A stretch of 64,000 bases of DNA, from NCBI RefSeq assembly GCF_009177095.1, contig NZ_AP021861.1:248001-312000 (forward strand), written 5' to 3'. Source of the stretch: Lacipirellula parvula (GTDB lineage Bacteria; Planctomycetota; Planctomycetia; Pirellulales; Lacipirellulaceae). The first letter of the stretch is position 1. Every line of letters starts with the position of its first letter. The position numbers and the translations under genes are program-made. The notes below the pieces were generated by a model. It searched no databases, had not been told where the DNA came from, and saw nothing but the letters and a program-made list of their open reading frames with translations. Shown in pieces: positions 6,131 to 53,788 of this stretch.

Positions 6131-6592
6131 ATGGACGACGAACGTTACATGCAACTGGCGCTGGAGCAAGCTCTCGAGGCCGCCACCGCCGATGAAGCGC
6201 CGGTTGGCGCGATCATCGTGGCCGACGACCGCGTCATCGCGGTGGCGCGCAATGAACGCGAAGCCCTCCGCGATCCCACGGCACACGCCGAAATGATCGC
6301 CATCACGCAGGCCGCCGCCGCCCTCAGCAATTGGCGGTTGGAGAACTGTACCCTGTACGTGACGCTCGAGCCGTGTCCCATGTGCGCCGGCGCGATTGTC
6401 CAGGCCCGCATCCCACGCGTCGTCTTCGGCGCCCTCGACCCCAAAGGGGGAGCGGTACGCAGTTTGTATCGATTGTTGGAGGACGAGCGGTTGAACCACC
6501 GCGTCGCGGTCGTCGAAGGGGTGCTCCGCGAGCCGTGCGGGCAGGTACTGACCGACTTTTTTGCGGCGAAACGGCGGGCCAAGCGGCCGTAA
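6131..6592 (+). CDS. tadA: tRNA-specific adenosine deaminase
   Basis: Zinc deaminase of 153 residues that converts A34 to inosine in the tRNA-Arg anticodon. The catalytic motif H52-A-E54 and the zinc cysteines in P-C82-P-M-C85 are all present, together with APVGAIIV and the C-terminal [10 protein letters not shown] that fits TadA. A TTG lies directly before the ATG at 6131; I use the ATG. It is divergent from the VanZ-like gene. Confidence 0.95.
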
Positions 6593-6879
6593 CCAGGCGG
6601 ATCGCAGCGAATTCGCGAACGGCGACCGGCGGTTGCGATTGCAGCGACGGAAGCGGCGCCATACGCGGGAATTCGTCCCAAACCCAGCGAATTGGTCGCT
6701 GGGGCTCGGGGCGCCGGCGACTAGAGTGGAAGTTAGCCAGCCGGGGGACCGGGCCGATTGCTAGAAGTTTGTCCCCCCCGCAGGCTCCGCGTAGAATTGG
6801 AATCAACATTCCACTCGATCTTTTCTTGCCATGGACTGCCGATCGCCGGCAGCCGCCGTCGTTGCCGGGAGTATTCGCG

Positions 6880-9779: not shown

Positions 9780-10607
9780 CTATTTGAGCCATGATTTGAA
9801 CTCCGGCGTCACTTCGCCTTCCTTTGCCCAAATGGCCCATTGGTTGCCGTAGCGGTTGCGCGCCCACAGTACCCAGGCCCGCACAATCGCCTCGCGCACC
9901 GGCTTCTCGCCATCTTTGCCGACGGTTACGGGGCGGAGCTGCGGGACGCTCGGCACGCCGGCGGCTTCCAGCGCCGCTGCTTTGCGCTCGCAGGTGATGA
10001 GAAACTTCTGCAACCCCCACGTGTCGTTGTTCCAGCCTTCCGGCACGTAGTTGCTCGTCCAGTTGACGCCGCCCAGGTCTTTGAGCTGATCGCGGATCGT
10101 CTCGCCGGGCGCGACCTGCAAACGGGCCGTTGCCTGGACGTTGTCAAAGTACTCCTGCGGATGCGTGAGGATGAAGTCGCCGTTGGCGGGCGTGTGTTCG
10201 AACCAACTGTAGATTCCGATCCGCGTCTTCTCGCGTTTGGCTTGAGGGCGAATGGCTTCGAGCGCGTCGTGCAGTTCGCGATGCGCTTTGGCGATATCGT
10301 GCAGCGAGGCTTCGCGCGGATCGAGCGGCTGTCGCCGGTCGCCTGCCAGCACCGTCGGCTCGTAATCGAGCGCGACGATCTTTCCGCGATGCCCCAGCGC
10401 CTCGACTTCATACTTTGCGGGCGTCCAGGGATAGGCATGGTAGACGACCTCCACCGGGACGCTTCCCGGTACGTCTGCCAGCTGCCGGCCGATCGTCGCG
10501 TCGTAGCACTGTGCGATGCTATCAGCGGCGGCGGTCGCCAGTATGCTGAGCGCCAGAAACGCTAGCAGAAGCCGGCGGCTGCGATGGTTATTGACTGCAC
10601 GGAGCAC
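9780..10607 (-). CDS. Secreted protein of unknown function
   Basis: A 275-residue protein with an N-terminal signal peptide (LLLAFLALSILATAAADSIAQ). The mature part has segments such as GKIVALDYEPT, TRIGIYSWFEHTP and an Ala/Lys-rich helical C-terminus (WVLWARNRYGNQWAIWAK). The alternating strand/helix pattern and IGIYSW would fit a TIM-barrel-like fold, but I recognise no family and claim no activity. The gene is divergent from the large SdrD/DUF11 surface-protein gene. Confidence 0.7.
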   Translation of the reverse strand: MLRAVNNHRSRRLLLAFLALSILATAAADSIAQCYDATIGRQLADVPGSVPVEVVYHAYPWTPAKYEVEALGHRGKIVALDYEPTVLAGDRRQPLDPREASLHDIAKAHRELHDALEAIRPQAKREKTRIGIYSWFEHTPANGDFILTHPQEYFDNVQATARLQVAPGETIRDQLKDLGGVNWTSNYVPEGWNNDTWGLQKFLITCERKAAALEAAGVPSVPQLRPVTVGKDGEKPVREAIVRAWVLWARNRYGNQWAIWAKEGEVTPEFKSWLK

Positions 10608-10968
10608 TCGTTGCCTCTCGCGTTGCTTGCTGAAGGTGATCGGTCTCCCTCCAGCCTACTCAAATTCGCTCGCGGTTTCGCCCGTGATGCACGCGGAGCG
10701 GCAGCAACTCGTTGGGAAACGGCCGCTTCGCGAGGCCGCGGAGGCGAGCGCCTGTCACGCTGCGTCCGCGCACGAAGTTGCAGTTTCTCGTGCAGCGACG
10801 CCTGTTTCTGCCGCTTCCGCATGCGCGGCCGACTGGGAGTGCTGGCGCGGTGCGCGGAAATCGTCCGTCTGTTGGGAATCTGTGCGGATTGTGTCGGCCT
10901 CTCTGGCCGATAACACACCAAAGTCGTCCTCCCTGGAATTCGCTGAACTCGTTGTTGAGGGTGCTCGC
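10608..10968. other. Divergent intergenic region
   Basis: The 361 bases must hold the promoters for both flanking genes. The plus-strand frame of the downstream gene stays open here, but its translation is Arg/Ala/Cys-rich, unlike the mature protein, and the signature N-terminus begins at 10969. I see no clear promoter box, repeat or RNA structure. Confidence 0.5.
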
Positions 10969-13647
10969 ATGGCGCCATTCCGTTTCAGTCCGCAGTCGCT
11001 GTTCCGCAAGTTTGCCCCGGCTCGCGCTGCCAAGCCGCTCGCCAAGGGCCTTCGCCGCAAGCAGGGCTTCGGCTTCGAGTCGCTTGAATCGCGGCAGATG
11101 ATGGCGGCCGACATGGCCGAAATCGTCGGCACCGTGCGGCTCGACGTGCAGAACGACGGCAACGCGGCGAATGACACGCTCGTCGCTGGGGCCACGGTTC
11201 AGCTCTACCGCGACAACGGCAACGGCACGTTCGACGCGAGCGACGTGGCCATCGGCGGCGTCGCGACGACCGACGCCTTCGGCCAATATCGTTTCAGCGG
11301 CCTCGGCGCCGGCAAGTACTTTGCCAAGCTGACGCTGCCCTCGGCTTACCAAACGAAGTCGGGCGGCGGGCTGCAAGAAATCAACATCACGGCCGACGAG
11401 TCGAACGGTACCATTGGCCAGACGATCGACGACTTCGAGTCGAACCAAATCGCCGGCGCCGCGCCTCCGCTGCCGTCGAGCGACAATTCAACGAAGGCCG
11501 ACCCCGGCGTCATGGGCGGCGAGCGCGACCTGCACGTTGTTCTCACCGAAGGGACCGATATCTACTCGTCGGTCTCGCTGATCAGCGGCGGCGGCTTCTT
11601 GCGGCTCGCCAGCGGTAGCATGGTGAAGGGCAATGCCAAGGTCGTTTGGGACGGCCAAGACAATAGCGCCACCTCGCTCAACCCGACCGGTCTCGGCGGG
11701 CTCGACTTCCGGTCGTTCAACGGCAACACGATGACCGGCATCGTGCTGAAGGTGGGCGCCGATCATCCGAACAGCGTCGTCAAGCTGAAGGTTTACACGA
11801 ACGCCGGCAAGTGGACCGAGTTCACCGCCACCGTGCCGGAAACGAACGGCGGCGCCGCAACGGCCCAACTCACGTTCAACTTCTCCGGCCCAGCCAGCAG
11901 CAGCTCGGGCGGCGGCGTCGATTGGAGCAACGTCGGCGCCATCGAGCTCACCTTCGAAGGCGTCACCGCCGTCGACGGCATGGTCTCGCTGGTCGGCGTC
12001 ATCGGCCTCACGACGAAGACCGCCGACTTCACCGCTTACGAGCGGATCAACCTTGGCGATCGCGTCTGGAACGATGCGAACAACAACGGTACGCTCGACG
12101 GCAGCGAACAAGGGATCGGCAACGTCAAGCTGAACCTGTTCATCGACGCCGACAACAACAACCAATTCACGCCTGGCGTCGACACCTTCGTGGCGACGAC
12201 GACGACCAACGGCACGGGCCATTACCAGTTCACCGATCTGCTGCCCGGCAAGTACATCGTGCAGGTCGACGCGGCGAACTTCGGCGCCGGCCAGGCTCTT
12301 GAAGGCCTCAAACCAAGCTCGGGCGTTGCGGCTGATCCCGACAACGGCGTCGACAACGATAACAACGGCGCCCTGCTCGCCGGCCAAGGAGTCGTCAGCC
12401 AGGGCCTGTCGCTGATCGCCGCCAACATGACGGTCGACTTCGGTTTCTTCGGCTTCGACCTGGTGCTCGACAAGTCGATCGATCAAACCAGCGCCTCGCC
12501 GACCGAGACGCTGGACTACACGGTTCGCATCGTCAACGACGGTCCCTCGACCGCGATGAACGTGTCGTTCCTCGATACGCTCCCCGATGGCGTGACCTAC
12601 AAGTCGCTCACCATCGATAAGGCTGGCATCAGCCTCACGCACTCGAACGGCAAGATCACCGGCAACCTCGGCAACATGGCCGCGGGCGAGGTGATCATCA
12701 TCAAGATCAAGGTCGACGTGAAGGCCAACGCCACCGGTTCGCTGCTCAATAAGGCCGAAGTCAGCGCCCCGAACGAAGAATACACGCTGAATAACAAGGA
12801 CGAGGTCGAGATCCCGGTGATCCCGAAGATCGACCTCGCCATCGACAAGATCGATAGCCGCGATCCGGTTGCGCCGGGCGAAATCTTCTACTACACGGTG
12901 ACGGTCACGAACAACGGTCCGTCGATCGCCACGGGCGTGAAGGTCGTCGACACGCTCCCAGCGAGCGGCGTGGCCTACATGTCGACGTCGCGGGCGTTGG
13001 AGTCGCACCTGGGGCGCGAGCTGACTTACAACCTCGGCACGATGGCGCCGGGCGACGTCGTCACGTTTACGATCTACGTGCAAGTGGATCAAGGGTTCAG
13101 CGGCACGCTGTTGAACGAGATCACGGTCGCGGGCAACGAGATCGAAATCACCTACGCCAATAACAAGGACACTGAGCCGACGGTCGTGAAGGTCGATCCG
13201 GCGAGCCTGAATGGCTACGTCTATGTCGACAAGAACAACAACGGCGTCAAGGAAGCGGGCGAGCAACCGATTGCCGGCGTGCTGATGACGCTTAACGGCA
13301 TCGATATCTTCGGCACGTCGGTGTCGCGTACGACGTACACCAATGCGAGCGGTTACTACAGCTTCGACAATCTGACGCCTGGCACCTACAACGTCCTGCA
13401 GACGCAGCCGACGAAGTACAAGGACGGCAAGGATGCAGTAGGTAACACGTTCAATCAGCTCGGCGAAATGCTGATCGGTCAGAACGGCTTTTTGGGGCTT
13501 GATATGAATGATCAAGACACTGCCGACGCCGATTCCATCCAGCAGATCACGCTCAATGGCGGCCACGCGGCGAAGGACTACAACTTCGGCGAGCTCGCCG
13601 TCTCGACGAGCAAAGTCGATTTCATCCGTCCGATTTTCTACCGCTAA
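10969..13647 (+). CDS. Large surface protein with LEPR-like motif, SdrD B-like and DUF11 domains
   Basis: An 892-residue protein. The N-terminus is basic and then carries FGFESLESRQMMAAD (residues 34-48), the LEPR-XLL-type motif of giant planctomycete surface proteins. Domains in order: an SdrD/CnaB-like repeat (about 52-140), a Ser/Gly-rich beta region (150-360), a second SdrD-like repeat (about 365-465), two DUF11 modules (from about 500 and 625), and a third SdrD-like repeat (about 745-850). The acidic Asp/Asn runs probably bind calcium. It is likely an exported adhesin or cell-surface scaffold. The frame is open upstream; ATG 10969 is chosen from the motif position. Confidence 0.85.
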   Translation: MAPFRFSPQSLFRKFAPARAAKPLAKGLRRKQGFGFESLESRQMMAADMAEIVGTVRLDVQNDGNAANDTLVAGATVQLYRDNGNGTFDASDVAIGGVATTDAFGQYRFSGLGAGKYFAKLTLPSAYQTKSGGGLQEINITADESNGTIGQTIDDFESNQIAGAAPPLPSSDNSTKADPGVMGGERDLHVVLTEGTDIYSSVSLISGGGFLRLASGSMVKGNAKVVWDGQDNSATSLNPTGLGGLDFRSFNGNTMTGIVLKVGADHPNSVVKLKVYTNAGKWTEFTATVPETNGGAATAQLTFNFSGPASSSSGGGVDWSNVGAIELTFEGVTAVDGMVSLVGVIGLTTKTADFTAYERINLGDRVWNDANNNGTLDGSEQGIGNVKLNLFIDADNNNQFTPGVDTFVATTTTNGTGHYQFTDLLPGKYIVQVDAANFGAGQALEGLKPSSGVAADPDNGVDNDNNGALLAGQGVVSQGLSLIAANMTVDFGFFGFDLVLDKSIDQTSASPTETLDYTVRIVNDGPSTAMNVSFLDTLPDGVTYKSLTIDKAGISLTHSNGKITGNLGNMAAGEVIIIKIKVDVKANATGSLLNKAEVSAPNEEYTLNNKDEVEIPVIPKIDLAIDKIDSRDPVAPGEIFYYTVTVTNNGPSIATGVKVVDTLPASGVAYMSTSRALESHLGRELTYNLGTMAPGDVVTFTIYVQVDQGFSGTLLNEITVAGNEIEITYANNKDTEPTVVKVDPASLNGYVYVDKNNNGVKEAGEQPIAGVLMTLNGIDIFGTSVSRTTYTNASGYYSFDNLTPGTYNVLQTQPTKYKDGKDAVGNTFNQLGEMLIGQNGFLGLDMNDQDTADADSIQQITLNGGHAAKDYNFGELAVSTSKVDFIRPIFYR

Positions 13648-14194: not shown

Positions 14195-14402
14195 TCAGCC
14201 TCGGAGGGGCGATAGGTTGTAGCCAGGGTCGCTAGCCCCTGGTTTCTGGACAGAATAGTCATTTCAGCCCCGTCAGGGGCGACACTGCTTGGATTGAGTA
14301 GCGGGATCAATGTCGCCCCTCCGGGGCTTGAGTTCATCGCAACGGTTCTGACCAGGGGCTGACGCCCCTGGCTACACTCTGTCGCCCCCTCCGGGGGCTG
14401 AG
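14195..14402. repeat. Triple nested inverted repeat
   Basis: Six units lie in mirror order. A 14195-14213 (CTCAGCCTCGGAGGGGCGA), B 14218-14248 (TGTAGCCAGGGTCGCTAGCC and on), C 14264-14286 (TCAGCCCCGTCAGGGGCGAC), then inverted C at 14310-14333, inverted B at 14345-14376 and inverted A at 14379-14402. Each unit is itself a small palindrome around GGGGC/GCCCC. No gene is visible here. Confidence 0.85.
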
Positions 14403-14482: not shown

Positions 14483-14767
14483 GTTCGGCGGCGGGCCTTC
14501 TAGCCGGCAAAAAAGTTCGAATCTTTTCCACCCCGATCCGGCGCCTTTCCCATTCGTGACCTAGGGTTGTAATGCCCGGCCATGCGCCTGCCGAGAAATC
14601 GGCGACGCGGGGCCGCGGCAGGGCTTTCGGCCCTCCTTTTCGTTGACTTATCCCCTGCCCCTTTTCGTTTCGCTCCGCTCTTTCACGCGTGCTCGCACGG
14701 CGTTCGACGCTGCGCGCCGCACACACCGACAGACTCGCGAGACGGACCCGCCAGTCGAGACGCCATC

Positions 14768-15241
14768 ATGCGGCACCTCAGGAAACGTCCGGCGCAACGC
14801 CGCGGCACCGCCGTCGTCGAAACGGCGGTCGTGCTTCCCGTCTATGTGCTGCTGCTATTGGGGATCATCGAGTTCGGCCATGCGACGATGGTGATCAACC
14901 TGCTGCAAAGCGGTTGCCGCACCGCCGCTCGCATGGGCTCGATGCAGGGGCCGAACACGGATCAAGTCGTCGCGAGGGTTCGCCAGACGCTCGGATCCGC
15001 GATTGATGCGAACAAGGTGAACGTTTTCGTGCAGGACGCCAGTTCGCTTGATTCGGGCGCCGTCTGGCCGACCACGGACGCCGAAGTCCAAGCGTTGCCC
15101 CCCATGGAATTAACCGAGGCCGAGCCTCGGCAGATGTTCGTCGTCCGCGCCAGCGTCAACTACAACGACGTATCGGTGCTTCCAATGCCTTTCCTGGCCG
15201 GCGTCACCCTCGACGCTCAAGCCTTTATGCGACACGAGTGA
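14768..15241 (+). CDS. TadE-like pilus assembly protein
   Basis: A 157-residue protein with a TadE signature: a short basic N-terminus, then RRGTAVVETAVVLPVYVLLLLGIIEFGHA (split here as RRGTAVVETA plus one transmembrane helix, residues 11-38). The rest is predicted outside the membrane. TadE-like pseudopilins work with Tad/Flp type IV secretion and pilus systems and are cleaved before a hydrophobic helix containing a conserved Glu. First of three adjacent genes (TadE, TadE, TadG-like). ATG 14768 was chosen over upstream starts because it precedes the basic segment directly. Confidence 0.85.
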   Translation: MRHLRKRPAQRRGTAVVETAVVLPVYVLLLLGIIEFGHATMVINLLQSGCRTAARMGSMQGPNTDQVVARVRQTLGSAIDANKVNVFVQDASSLDSGAVWPTTDAEVQALPPMELTEAEPRQMFVVRASVNYNDVSVLPMPFLAGVTLDAQAFMRHE

Positions 15242-15267: not shown

Positions 15268-15771
15268 ATGTCTCCCGCCACCCCTCAGCGACGTTGGAAT
15301 CGTCGCTCCCTAAAGCCAGCCGCACGACGCGGCGCCGTTGCCGTCGAATTCGCCGCAGTCGCCCCGCTGCTGCTTGCCGTGATCGTCGGGCTCGTTGAGC
15401 TCTCGCGAGTTTATAGCGTTCAAAACTGCCTCGAAACCGCCGCTCGCGAGGGAGCCCGCTTCGCCGCGCTCGATCGCTCCGGCATGATGCTCGGCGGCAA
15501 GACCGCGAATCAAAAGCTGATCGACGACGTCAAAAACTATCTTGCCTCGAACAACATCAATCCCGACAAGGTCACGGTGAAGGTGACCGCCGCCGACAAC
15601 CCGGACCACGAATTTAATCTCGATGATCGGGCCAACGACATGCAACTGTTCCAAGTTCGCGTCGAGGTTCCTTATTCCGACGTCAGCTACACCCCGGTGA
15701 GCGACGCCAACGACTACACCCTGAATTCCGCGCTGACGTTCCGCAACGGTCGAGCGGTCGTCGCCAACTAA
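15268..15771 (+). CDS. TadE-like pilus assembly protein (second copy)
   Basis: A 167-residue paralogue of the preceding gene. The N-terminal ARRGAVAVEFAAVAPLLLAVI helix (from residue 19) carries the conserved Glu, followed by VELSRVYSVQNCLETAAREGAR as in TadE. The remainder is a small extracytoplasmic domain with strands (VTVKVTAAD, FQVRVEVPYSDV). It lies 26 bases downstream of the first copy and is probably co-transcribed with it and the TadG-like gene. Confidence 0.85.
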   Translation: MSPATPQRRWNRRSLKPAARRGAVAVEFAAVAPLLLAVIVGLVELSRVYSVQNCLETAAREGARFAALDRSGMMLGGKTANQKLIDDVKNYLASNNINPDKVTVKVTAADNPDHEFNLDDRANDMQLFQVRVEVPYSDVSYTPVSDANDYTLNSALTFRNGRAVVAN

Positions 15772-21382: not shown

Positions 21383-21567
21383 GAACCGCCAAGGACGCCA
21401 AGAGCGCCAAGGAATACGGGGAGAATTGAACCACGACGGCACGACGAGCACGACGGAATACGGAACCGCAGATAAACGCCGATTGTTTTCATTGGCGTCG
21501 ATCTGCGTTCATCGGCGGTTCCAATGAGCGACTGAATTTCTTGGCGCTCTTGGCGTCCTTGGCGGTT
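21383..21567. repeat. Composite nested repeat X-Z-Y-y-x
   Basis: Outer arms X at 21383-21413 (AACCGCCAAGGACGCCAAGA and on) and 21538-21567 are inverted. Inside lie an unpaired Z word (GAACCACGACGGCACGACGA at 21427) and an inner inverted pair Y at 21462-21483 and 21501-21522 (GGAACCGC, AACGC, GAT words). The same X-Z-inner-x arrangement recurs at 53549-53788. It begins 20 bases after a stop codon. Confidence 0.85.
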
Positions 21568-29061: not shown

Positions 29062-29847
29062 ATGTTCCCCCGGCTCGCCCCAGCCGCCGTCGCCTTCGCC
29101 CTCGCGGCGTTGTTGGCGTCTTCTTCCTGGGCGGAGTCGATCGTGGCGACCTCGATCGACCCCTCGCGGCAGAAGCTCGCCGCCTCGATCAGCCAACTCC
29201 TCGAAGACGCGATCCCCGTCAACTACGACAAGCGCCAGGACTGGGACGCCCAAACCGAAATGGTCGTCGGCCTCCGCACCGAGGGCCATGGCTTCCATAC
29301 CGAAATCCACCGCCGCAAGAAGATGGTGGATCACGGCGTTTGGAAACATTACCGCGTTCGCGTCGTCGAGCCGGAGCGGAATCTCTCGCTGCAACTGACG
29401 CGGCTCGAACCAATCGCCCCCGGCCGCATCGGCTTCACGCTGCGGCTTGATGCCAAGCTCGACGCCTGGGCCCGCGCGAAGGTCTACCAGTACGGCGTCC
29501 ACATCATCGCTCTGGAAGTCGAAGGCGACACGCGGATGATTCTCGACTTGTCGGGCGAGATCGGTCTGCAAATGACCACGGTGGATGGTTCGCCTGGCAT
29601 GAAGGTCGACCCACGGATCACCGACGCCCGCCTACAGCTGGAAGATTTCCACATCCGCCGCGTCAGCCAGGCCCGCGGCCCGCTCGTTAAAGAGCTGAGC
29701 GGCGGCGTGCGGCGAGTGATCGAAGAAGAAGCGAACGGCCCGCAGCTGGTGGAGAAGCTGAATCGCGCGATCGACAAAAAACGGGATCGCCTGGTCTTCA
29801 GCACCGCCGACTGGCTAAAGTCCCCCTGGTCGACAGCGCAACAGTAG
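29062..29847 (+). CDS. Secreted protein of unknown function
   Basis: A 261-residue protein with a signal peptide (AAVAFALAALLASSSWAES). The mature part is beta-rich with alternating charged strands (TEIHRRKKMVDHGVWKHYRV, LSLQLTRLEPIAPGRIGFTL, VHIIALEVEGDTRMILDLSG), which could suit a lipid- or envelope-binding sheet. It ends with a helix (KLNRAIDKKRDRLVF). I recognise no family. The TAG stop is the first three bases of a palindromic repeat. Confidence 0.72.
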   Translation: MFPRLAPAAVAFALAALLASSSWAESIVATSIDPSRQKLAASISQLLEDAIPVNYDKRQDWDAQTEMVVGLRTEGHGFHTEIHRRKKMVDHGVWKHYRVRVVEPERNLSLQLTRLEPIAPGRIGFTLRLDAKLDAWARAKVYQYGVHIIALEVEGDTRMILDLSGEIGLQMTTVDGSPGMKVDPRITDARLQLEDFHIRRVSQARGPLVKELSGGVRRVIEEEANGPQLVEKLNRAIDKKRDRLVFSTADWLKSPWSTAQQ

Positions 29848-30082
29848 CCGCGGGGCAACGCCCCCGCCGGAGCGCCATTCCAGCAGGCGCACCACGCAAC
29901 CCACCGCCACCACGCAACCCACCGCCATTTTTTAGCCCCCGGTTCTTCAAACCGGGGGGAGCATGGCGTCGCGTCCCACCCCCGATTTGAAGAACCGGGG
30001 GCGAAGCAGTTCTCTTGTTCGCGGAAACGTCGCAGGCGATGATGCCGATTGGTTCGCTCCGGCGGGTCATTGACCCGCGGCT
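29845..30082. repeat. Nested inverted repeat P2-P1-p1-p2
   Basis: Outer P2 units at 29845-29873 (TAGCCGCGGGGCAACGCCCC) and, inverted, 30056-30082. Inner P1 palindromes at 29933-29960 (CCCCCGG-TTCTTCAAA-CCGGGGG) and, inverted, 29978-30002. The first unit overlaps the stop codon of the preceding gene, and the last ends 18 bases before the next start. Confidence 0.88.
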
Positions 30083-42397: not shown

Positions 42398-42479
42398 TGG
42401 CAGGGTTCGGGGTTCAGGGTTCAGATTTTTGGAACTCGGTTACGGGCATTTTCTGAACCCTGAACCCCGAACCCTGCCA
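42398..42479. repeat. Perfect 28-base inverted repeat of GGGTTCAG words
   Basis: Arm 42398-42425 (TGGCAGGGTTCGGGGTTCAG and on) is the exact reverse complement of 42452-42479 with a 26-base loop. It lies between sdhB and the upstream propeller gene and would form a very stable RNA hairpin. Related words build the element at 51045-51239. Confidence 0.92.
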
Positions 42480-50001: not shown

Positions 50002-50019
50002 CGGAAAACTGAACCTTGA

Positions 50020-50122
50020 GGTCCCCTCCCCTTGAGGGGGAGGGTTAGGGAGGGGTGAAAGCAGCGGGTGCCAGAGTTCCACCCCCTCCCCAGCCCTCCC
50101 CTCAAGGGGGAGGGAGCCAGAA
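50020..50122. repeat. CCCCTCCCC/GGGGAGGG inverted element (copy 1)
   Basis: About 103 bases, nearly identical to 54971-55074. Each half contains CCCCTCCCC and GGGGGAGGG blocks, and the halves are inverted relative to one another around a GCAGCGGGT/CCAG centre. Confidence 0.9.
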
Positions 50123-50146
50123 AATTCGGGGTGGTCGGCAGCAGTG

Positions 50147-53548: not shown

Positions 53549-53788
53549 TTGCCTAACCGCCAAGGACGCCAAGAGCGCCAAGGAAATGCGTGGAGAAGGG
53601 AACCACGACGGCACAACGCACAAGACGAAGAGCATGCGTATTTCACTCTGCCTTGTCTTCTCCTTTGCGCCTCTGCGCCTTTGCGAGAGATCTTTCTGGG
53701 GAAGGCATGTCTCACGCAAAGGCGCGAAGGCGCAAAGGAGATTTGGGAGAACCTTCGTTTCCCTTGGCGCTCTTGGCATCTTTGGCGG
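53549..53788. repeat. Composite nested repeat X-Z-V-v-x
   Basis: Outer X arms at 53549-53580 (AACCGCCAAGGACGCCAAGA) and, inverted, 53758-53788. Inside are an unpaired Z word (GAACCACGACGGCACAACGC at 53599) and a CGCAAAG hairpin (53659-53690 with 53711-53741). It has the same plan and junctions as 21383-21567, but a different inner hairpin. Confidence 0.85.

Follow-up and report, generated by a model that had tools for sequence, protein, structure and literature searches.

The nest of palindromes at positions 14195-14402 of the window, which is the whole stretch of 64,000 nucleotides of Lacipirellula parvula DNA analysed here, is very probably a non-autonomous, gene-less copy, of MITE or REPIN-like character, of a small transposon that we infer to be moved by a Y1 transposase, an HUH enzyme with a single tyrosine. 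The complete element would read A-B-C-[tnpA]-c-b-a, with an array of three small hairpins at each end, and its gene-less form would have kept both ends around a loop of about 26 nt between C and c. The Russian-doll order of the units follows from the right end being an inverted copy of the left, and nothing more is needed to explain it. The transposase, for which a gene-bearing copy is found in the same genome, would bind single-stranded DNA at the local hairpins of each end, which are set at a fixed spacing, and would then cut and either copy or move the element in trans, gene-less copies included, in a similar manner as in IS200/IS605 and REP/REPIN systems. The element would add a new variant to the REPIN/TIRtron systems, a family of six-hairpin Y1 transposons of which the nest is a gene-less member, and a strange-looking nest thereby becomes a testable transposon.

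Architecture and dispersal of the six-hairpin block

The first-pass annotation had described six palindromic units in the mirror order A-B-C-c-b-a, those of the right arm being inverted and diverged copies of those of the left, and both descriptions hold: six hairpins in this order occupy 14195-14402, and the arms are 84% complementary between 14206-14243 and 14351-14388 and 75% complementary between 14264-14287 and 14308-14331. The left arm begins with the outer hairpin A (14197..14214), followed by hairpin B with a 5' GTAG tag (14219..14243; pattern match C1:262219-262242 on the plus strand with 1 mismatch), a spacer (14244..14264) whose letters are little conserved among copies and whose length in the family is 21 (IQR 21-21), and the inner hairpin C (14265..14284). 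The C-c loop (14285..14310) marks the spot at which the autonomous copy carries its transposase gene (L034:6169-6618). In the right arm, the inner hairpin c (14311..14332) is followed by a spacer of equally little conserved letters (14333..14350), which measures 18 nt here versus 21-22 (IQR) in the family, by hairpin b with a 3' GGCTAC (14351..14376; pattern match C1:262352-262375 on the minus strand with 0 mismatches) and by the outer hairpin a (14380..14402). Hairpins b and a together form a match to the Rfam family RF01687, Acido-Lenti-1 (14352..14399, plus strand), which scores 42.3 bits at a gathering threshold of 37. The proposed distinction of separate unit families stands for B and b, which are characterised by the GTAG tag and GTAGCCAGGGGC...GCCCCTGG, but not for A and C, which by reading belong together with c and a to a single family (AGCCCC..GGGGCGACA). 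The strand folds with an energy of -67.1 kcal/mol compared to -35.9 +/- 3.45 for its shuffles (z -9.04), none of which (n=200) reached so low a value, and its energy optimum approximates the long A-a/B-b/C-c hairpin and not the local hairpins. The nest is flanked on one side by an ORF of 1043 aa (10516-13647) with SdrD_B and DUF11 domains and on the other by TadE-like ORFs at 14582-15241 and 15268-15771.

The nest is not a singular structure, as a block of about 200 bp is found at at least 40 places of the 6.9-Mb genome, which consists of one contig of 6,922,258 bp (208-bp query; 40 of 59 candidates scored, with 93 matches merged into 40 places). With the query itself excluded, identity is 68-79% in the longer matches, many of which appear on both strands since the element mirrors itself. 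The copies are full-length at 37 of the 40 aligned places, all with the order A-B-C-c-b-a, and partial at 3. Among the 37 copies, the mean pairwise identity amounts to 0.74-0.95 in the six hairpins versus 0.33-0.43 in the three spacers. The lengths of the latter are narrowly distributed, with medians of 21 for B-C (IQR 21-21), 26 for C-c (25-26) and 22 for c-b (21-22). Hairpins and their spacing are thus kept among copies and the letters in between are not, and since the spacers are on average only 33-43% identical, most copies are probably old. This combination of conserved hairpins with poorly conserved spacers of a fixed length of about 21 nt invites structural work on a small HUH enzyme that would read three consecutive hairpins.

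A scan of the whole genome with the B pattern, which yielded 110 matches at up to three mismatches, leads to the same picture. We used the 92 matches with up to two mismatches, a complete set at that level, and left out the other 18, because at three mismatches the hairpin matches its own complement. When tabulated by orientation, 76 of the 92 units fall into 38 neighbouring pairs, every one of which is inverted and, in a crude text check, contains the marks of the inner hairpins; the spacing is 120-147 bp in 37 pairs and 579 bp in one. The 16 unpaired units comprise 7 with a diverged partner, 8 truncated at one end and 1 that has collapsed to A-[B/b]-a. The element loci defined by this pattern (n=54) consist of 45 complete blocks, 8 that lack one end and the collapsed one, and none of the 54 lacks only the C-c pair. 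An outer layer D (AATAGCCCAGCA..TTCACAGGAT) has 4 matches in the genome at up to three mismatches, and as all 4 adjoin copies of the element we rejected it as a second step of nesting and regard it as additional end sequence that some copies carry.

Where flanks could be aligned, the element is absent from the orthologous sites of the sister species G003 at 7 of 7 testable loci and of G004 at 4 of 4; an eighth locus (5487014) is located at the edge of the stretch that was compared and was left unscored. At the site of the nest, 146 bp separate the aligned flanks in G003 versus 906 bp in the own genome (G000). A clean empty site is seen at one locus, G000:C1:1331642, where G003 and G004 are contiguous and G000 contains 277 extra bp composed of 44, a core of 201 bp and 32. 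At the other six, the relative is not aligned up to the element on both sides, and the absence there is compatible with loss as well as gain and leaves the ends loosely defined. The true ends are also unsure because the 277 bp exceed the core of about 200 bp and because some copies carry an outer layer. G003 does harbour elements of its own, but the only transposase detected there at E <= 1e-15 is 33% identical.

The gene-bearing copy and its transposase

The annotation had pointed to a Y1/RAYT-type gene as a candidate mobiliser and had seen no transposase in the window. The first proposal is now well supported by a Y1 tnpA located between C and c, although its protein is not of the RAYT type, and the second observation is no objection, as Y1 genes are found elsewhere in the genome. 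Four matches to the Y1 model (PF01797) are present in the own genome, the best of them in L034 (G000:C1:2341000-2353500), outside the window. When read by eye, this locus shows A-B-C followed by an ORF of 149 aa (6169-6618) and then c-b-a; it is the copy with the B pair spaced by 579 bp, and it is placed between dnaK and clpB (L034:4117-9491 for the dnaK-transposase-clpB stretch). The protein has a single Pfam match to PF01797 Y1_Tnp, at residues 5-118 with 95.6 bits, and scores 79.9 bits against NF033573, the model of the IS200/IS605 transposase (cut-off 55), with no match to the RAYT model NF047646. A profile built from 29 relatives, for which one of 30 was left out due to an internal stop, matches 8 solved sequences including the ISHp608 transposase 2a6m (E 9.9e-16), and His 55, His 57 and Tyr 114 are invariant in the 29 aligned rows.

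The remaining Y1 genes of the genome were rejected by eye as mobilisers of the element. Those in L036 (5583-6089, minus strand; a RAYT by NF047646 with 119.9 bits) and L037 (6011-6508, minus strand) are flanked by inverted palindromes of their own, which differ from those of the element (TGTGGGAGGCGTCTCCGACGCCGATT and AAAGCCGCGACCGGYGGTCGCGG, respectively), and the one in L035 is decayed. In L103, a broken element directly adjoins one copy of the palindrome found at L036.

Related transposases were collected in two sets: a family set, containing the best locus in each of 30 genomes (31 of 43 genomes had a match), and a named set, containing the best 80 of at least 580 loci found via one conserved peptide pattern. 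At least three family loci recur in the named set (L071/L140, L074/L145, L082/L162), which applies to all counts over the combined 110 loci, among them the 107 that carry the signature Y---Q--HH. To score inverted ends, the 300-nt upstream flank was compared with the reverse complement of the downstream flank at 102 loci, 8 of the 110 being dropped for short flanks, and the threshold was placed at the 99th percentile of 2000 mismatched flank pairs. It is exceeded at 70 of the 102 loci and missed at 32, versus 0 of 90 above it for displaced windows. Hairpins are dense next to the gene, with 1.84 and 1.67 per 200 nt in the adjoining stretches versus 0.41 and 0.46 at a distance of 800-1000 nt. 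The letters of the end hairpins vary between species (22 loci compared) while their stems remain paired.

We have compared both arms at 15 of the 18 loci where two were found (L139, L171 and L205 were dropped due to match length). All 360 stem pairs are Watson-Crick pairs (312 of 312 at the 13 distinct loci, as two are listed twice), and wherever the two arms differ (18 pairs), pairing is preserved in each arm (14 of 14 at distinct loci). The former count is biased, because the covariance model that picked the matches rewards local stems, an effect that does not extend to the differences between arms, and intact stems are thus support rather than proof for what appear to be conserved local hairpins. 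Since the arms match each other in only 324 of the 360 stem columns, we rejected the long nested hairpin as the conserved form despite its near-optimal energy. Covariation within the own genome does not discriminate between the two forms: for A, local pairing (85.6%) and pairing with a (80.0%) both beat all 300 shuffles, and there is next to no variation in B, C, c and b.

The location of the transposase is shared among some relatives. It is found near dnaK at 6 loci of the family set from 5 genera (G000, G007, G008, G053, G035 and, at 1.5 kb, G034), with clpB on the opposite side in G000, G007, G035 and G034, in an analysis where wider stretches covered 14 loci. At the 80 named loci, neither dnaK nor clpB was detected in flanks of up to 1.5 kb. 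On the transposase tree, four of the dnaK-adjacent loci fall into one clade (100/94) and the label requires 3 changes, a distribution that is compatible with an old address followed by later losses and that is at most suggestive of vertical inheritance of the transposase beside dnaK.

Acido-Lenti-1, known systems and alternative readings

The match of hairpins b and a to RF01687 is not confined to the nest. Matches to this model were found in 14 of 19 genomes among the relatives, own genome included (13 above the cut-off), and in 0 of 14 control genomes, with 150 candidates scored per genome in both cases. In a scan of all 110 transposase loci, 81 of 92 matches are located within 300 bp of the gene (18 of 18 in the family set and 63 of 74 in the named set). 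Counted by locus, a match within this distance is present at 14 of 30 family and 33 of 80 named loci and absent at 16 and 47, respectively. The orientation expected for inverted ends, minus strand upstream and plus strand downstream, is observed for 57 of the 63 near matches in the named and for 12 of the 18 in the family set, the remaining 6 of the latter being opposite; at least one of these exceptions (L077, L078) has a whole or partial element just upstream of the gene. Hosts of near matches include Planctomycetota, Acidobacteriota (Terriglobus albidus, L205), Verrucomicrobiota, Zixibacteriota, Nitrospirae, Calditrichaceae and Bacteroidetes, and among 58 distinct 46-mers all four types of Watson-Crick pairs are found at some stem positions. 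At L159 and L173 several Acido-Lenti-1 units stand in a row beside the transposase; the row in L173 comprises four units of the same strand at intervals of 86-90 bp.

Acido-Lenti-1 has been observed in the vicinity of group II introns. It was listed among candidate RNAs, from Acidobacteria and Lentisphaerae (Weinberg et al., 2010, PMC2864571), and a paper from 2026 describes its function as little known and proposes that it may regulate neighbouring genes (PMC13298647). No link to a transposase was found in the accessible portions of the open-licence literature, and the word Acido-Lenti is absent from the main text of Di Nocera et al. (2013, PMC3733652). The motif, matched here above its gathering threshold and listed as a candidate RNA, is in the nest part of a putative transposon end. 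On balance we favour the view that Acido-Lenti-1 is not primarily an RNA but a DNA end module of the widespread Y---Q--HH ('subclass 1.2') Y1 transposases, that the six-hairpin elements would constitute populations resident in several phyla, among them Planctomycetota, Acidobacteriota and Verrucomicrobiota, and that the transposase, inherited largely vertically, would have kept a single address next to dnaK in several genera of the same planctomycete family. This would offer an explanation at the level of DNA for an Rfam family whose members continue to be interpreted as RNA and, if true, would lead annotators to relabel many such 'ncRNAs' as transposon ends.

Among known systems, the element shares with REPINs and the REPtron with its RAYT a small Y1 transposase flanked by inverted palindromes that are also dispersed as inverted pairs (PMC3116915, PMC2817692). 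Both features are found here, the former at L034 and the latter in 38 of 38 B pairs. The GTAG tag and the conserved palindromes separated by a less conserved spacer of set length are likewise REPIN-like, and the single gene-bearing copy resembles the usual one full-length RAYT gene per REP type (Quentin et al., 2018, PMC6006769). The differences concern the ends, with three hairpins per arm (six per unit of about 200 bp) instead of the one of a REPIN, and the protein, which is IS200-like (Y---Q--HH, NF033573) and not a RAYT (Y---NP, NF047646). TIRtrons with their TIRYT are similar in combining a Y1 transposase with long terminal inverted repeats and, in some families, with dispersal, also in Acidobacteria (Di Nocera et al., 2013), and such repeats are found at L034 by reading and at the 70 of 102 related loci by score. 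In contrast, subclass 2.1, whose proteins have a C-terminal HTH domain, accounts for 20 of the 26 examples of TIRYT (Quentin et al., 2018), whereas the 149-aa protein contains PF01797 only.

By sequence, the protein is a TnpA of the IS200/IS605 group that includes IS608 and its relatives (2a6m and seven other solved sequences), with HUH motif, tyrosine and hairpin ends in common, but the known members are described as devoid of terminal inverted repeats (Nunvar et al., 2010, PMC2817692), whereas the ends found here are inverted copies. A further counterpart is TnpAY1 subclass 1.2, an assignment made by signature alone, which shares Y---Q--HH, a low copy number and proximity to IS200 TnpA. In the available description of this subclass its members are mostly from Cyanobacteria and Bacteroidetes and generally without typical terminal structures or insertion-sequence properties (PMC6006769). 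The loci studied here are, in contrast, mainly from Planctomycetota, Acidobacteriota and Verrucomicrobiota and display inverted multi-hairpin ends, not of the IS200 kind, as well as dispersed copies. Our results suggest a DNA partner for the Y---Q--HH group, at least for its members in Planctomycetota and neighbours, and they offer candidate substrates for transposases that were reported without typical ends.

The mirror order at the site could also have originated from true nesting, in which paired palindromes were inserted successively into the spacer of an earlier pair, as the annotation had proposed. Such a process would have a precedent in REPINs, which were suggested to insert into, or next to, REPINs (Bertels and Rainey, 2011, PMC3116915), and different families do enclose each other elsewhere in this genome (five inverted GTAGCCGCGGG pairs in the sample discussed below). 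For the nest at 14195-14402 we regard it as highly improbable: its six hairpins recur as a single block with a nearly fixed spacing of the B pairs, A and C are of one family, the transposase gene of L034 is placed within a mirror-ordered frame as well, no copy examined lacks the inner pair alone, and the 9 element loci that are not complete blocks are broken or collapsed. The annotation had itself named a whole nest that behaves as one fixed block as evidence against insertion into older pairs, and this is what is found within the own genome. A single foldback, an inverted duplication which later spread via an unrelated transposase or recombination, would equally produce arms that are inverted copies of each other and a strand capable of forming one long hairpin. 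The position of the transposase gene between C and c, together with related transposases in other species whose inverted ends are of a different hairpin sequence, makes it the most remote of the readings considered.

A structured RNA of the kind implied by the Acido-Lenti-1 label, whether an sRNA, a terminator or a regulatory leader, that was dispersed for a host function would agree with the RF01687 match, with the conserved stems separated by free spacers of set length and with the compensatory changes across species. It is difficult to reconcile with the location of RF01687 next to transposase genes, where most matches are oriented as inverted ends would be, with the conservation of the mirror copy, with the existence of a gene-bearing copy and with the absence of the element at orthologous loci of the sister species, and we thus consider it unlikely as an account of the family, while some copies may have acquired a role for the host. 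A gene-less copy of a Y1 transposon is the reading that we prefer.

Other nests and repeats of the genome

The further nests listed in the annotation, at 197-345, 29845-30082, 21383-21567 and 53549-53788, all exist. Two of them recur as blocks: the nest at 197-345 recurs in L026 and L001 with its interior unchanged in kind, and the one at 21383-21567, a block of about 185 bp in which CGCCAAGG-type arms surround CACGACGG and GATAAACGCC units, accounts for 3 full-length matches among 31 in the sample of the own genome (one being itself) and for 3 among 29 in relatives (two being one place of G003). The latter nest is absent at the orthologous site, where G003 has 31 bp and G004 about 27 bp versus 250. 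In a sample of 582 kb of the own genome that includes the window, the nests at 29845-30082 and 53549-53788 have full-length matches only to themselves. Within the former, an 18-bp unit (CACCACGCAACCCACCGC) is present as a perfect tandem duplicate at 29890-29925.

Some of the other nests look genuinely composite. Of the 29 units of the GTAGCCGCGGG family in the own sample, 17 are solitary, and the others form 5 inverted pairs and 1 direct pair. Three of the inverted pairs enclose a GAATGGGG pair, and two enclose a CACAAAG..CACGACGG pair and a further element. Real Russian dolls are encountered in L068 (6323-6698 and 8151-8626), where a GTAGCCGCGGG pair encloses an inverted CACAAAG..CACGACGG pair, which in turn encloses a further hairpin element, in one case a broken copy of the six-hairpin element. 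Among the Y1 genes of the own genome, none could be assigned to the GTAGCCGCGGG family as its transposase. The proposal of nested insertion, which is not supported for the single block at 14195-14402, may apply better to these GTAGCCGCGGG composites, those in L068 included.

Two smaller repeats were also encountered. At 42398-42479, the 28-nt arms of a GGGTTCAGGGTTCAG inverted pair are 100% complementary, and as the aligned flanks are separated by 6 bp in G003 versus 122, such hairpins also come and go. A near-palindromic repeat of about 115 bp (CCCCTCCCCTTGAGGGGGAGGG) is located at 50006-50126 of the window and at L003:1407-1521 and 12304-12427, and is found at about 30 places among the matches listed for the own genome, which are mostly 90-98% identical and thus apparently the product of a recent spread.
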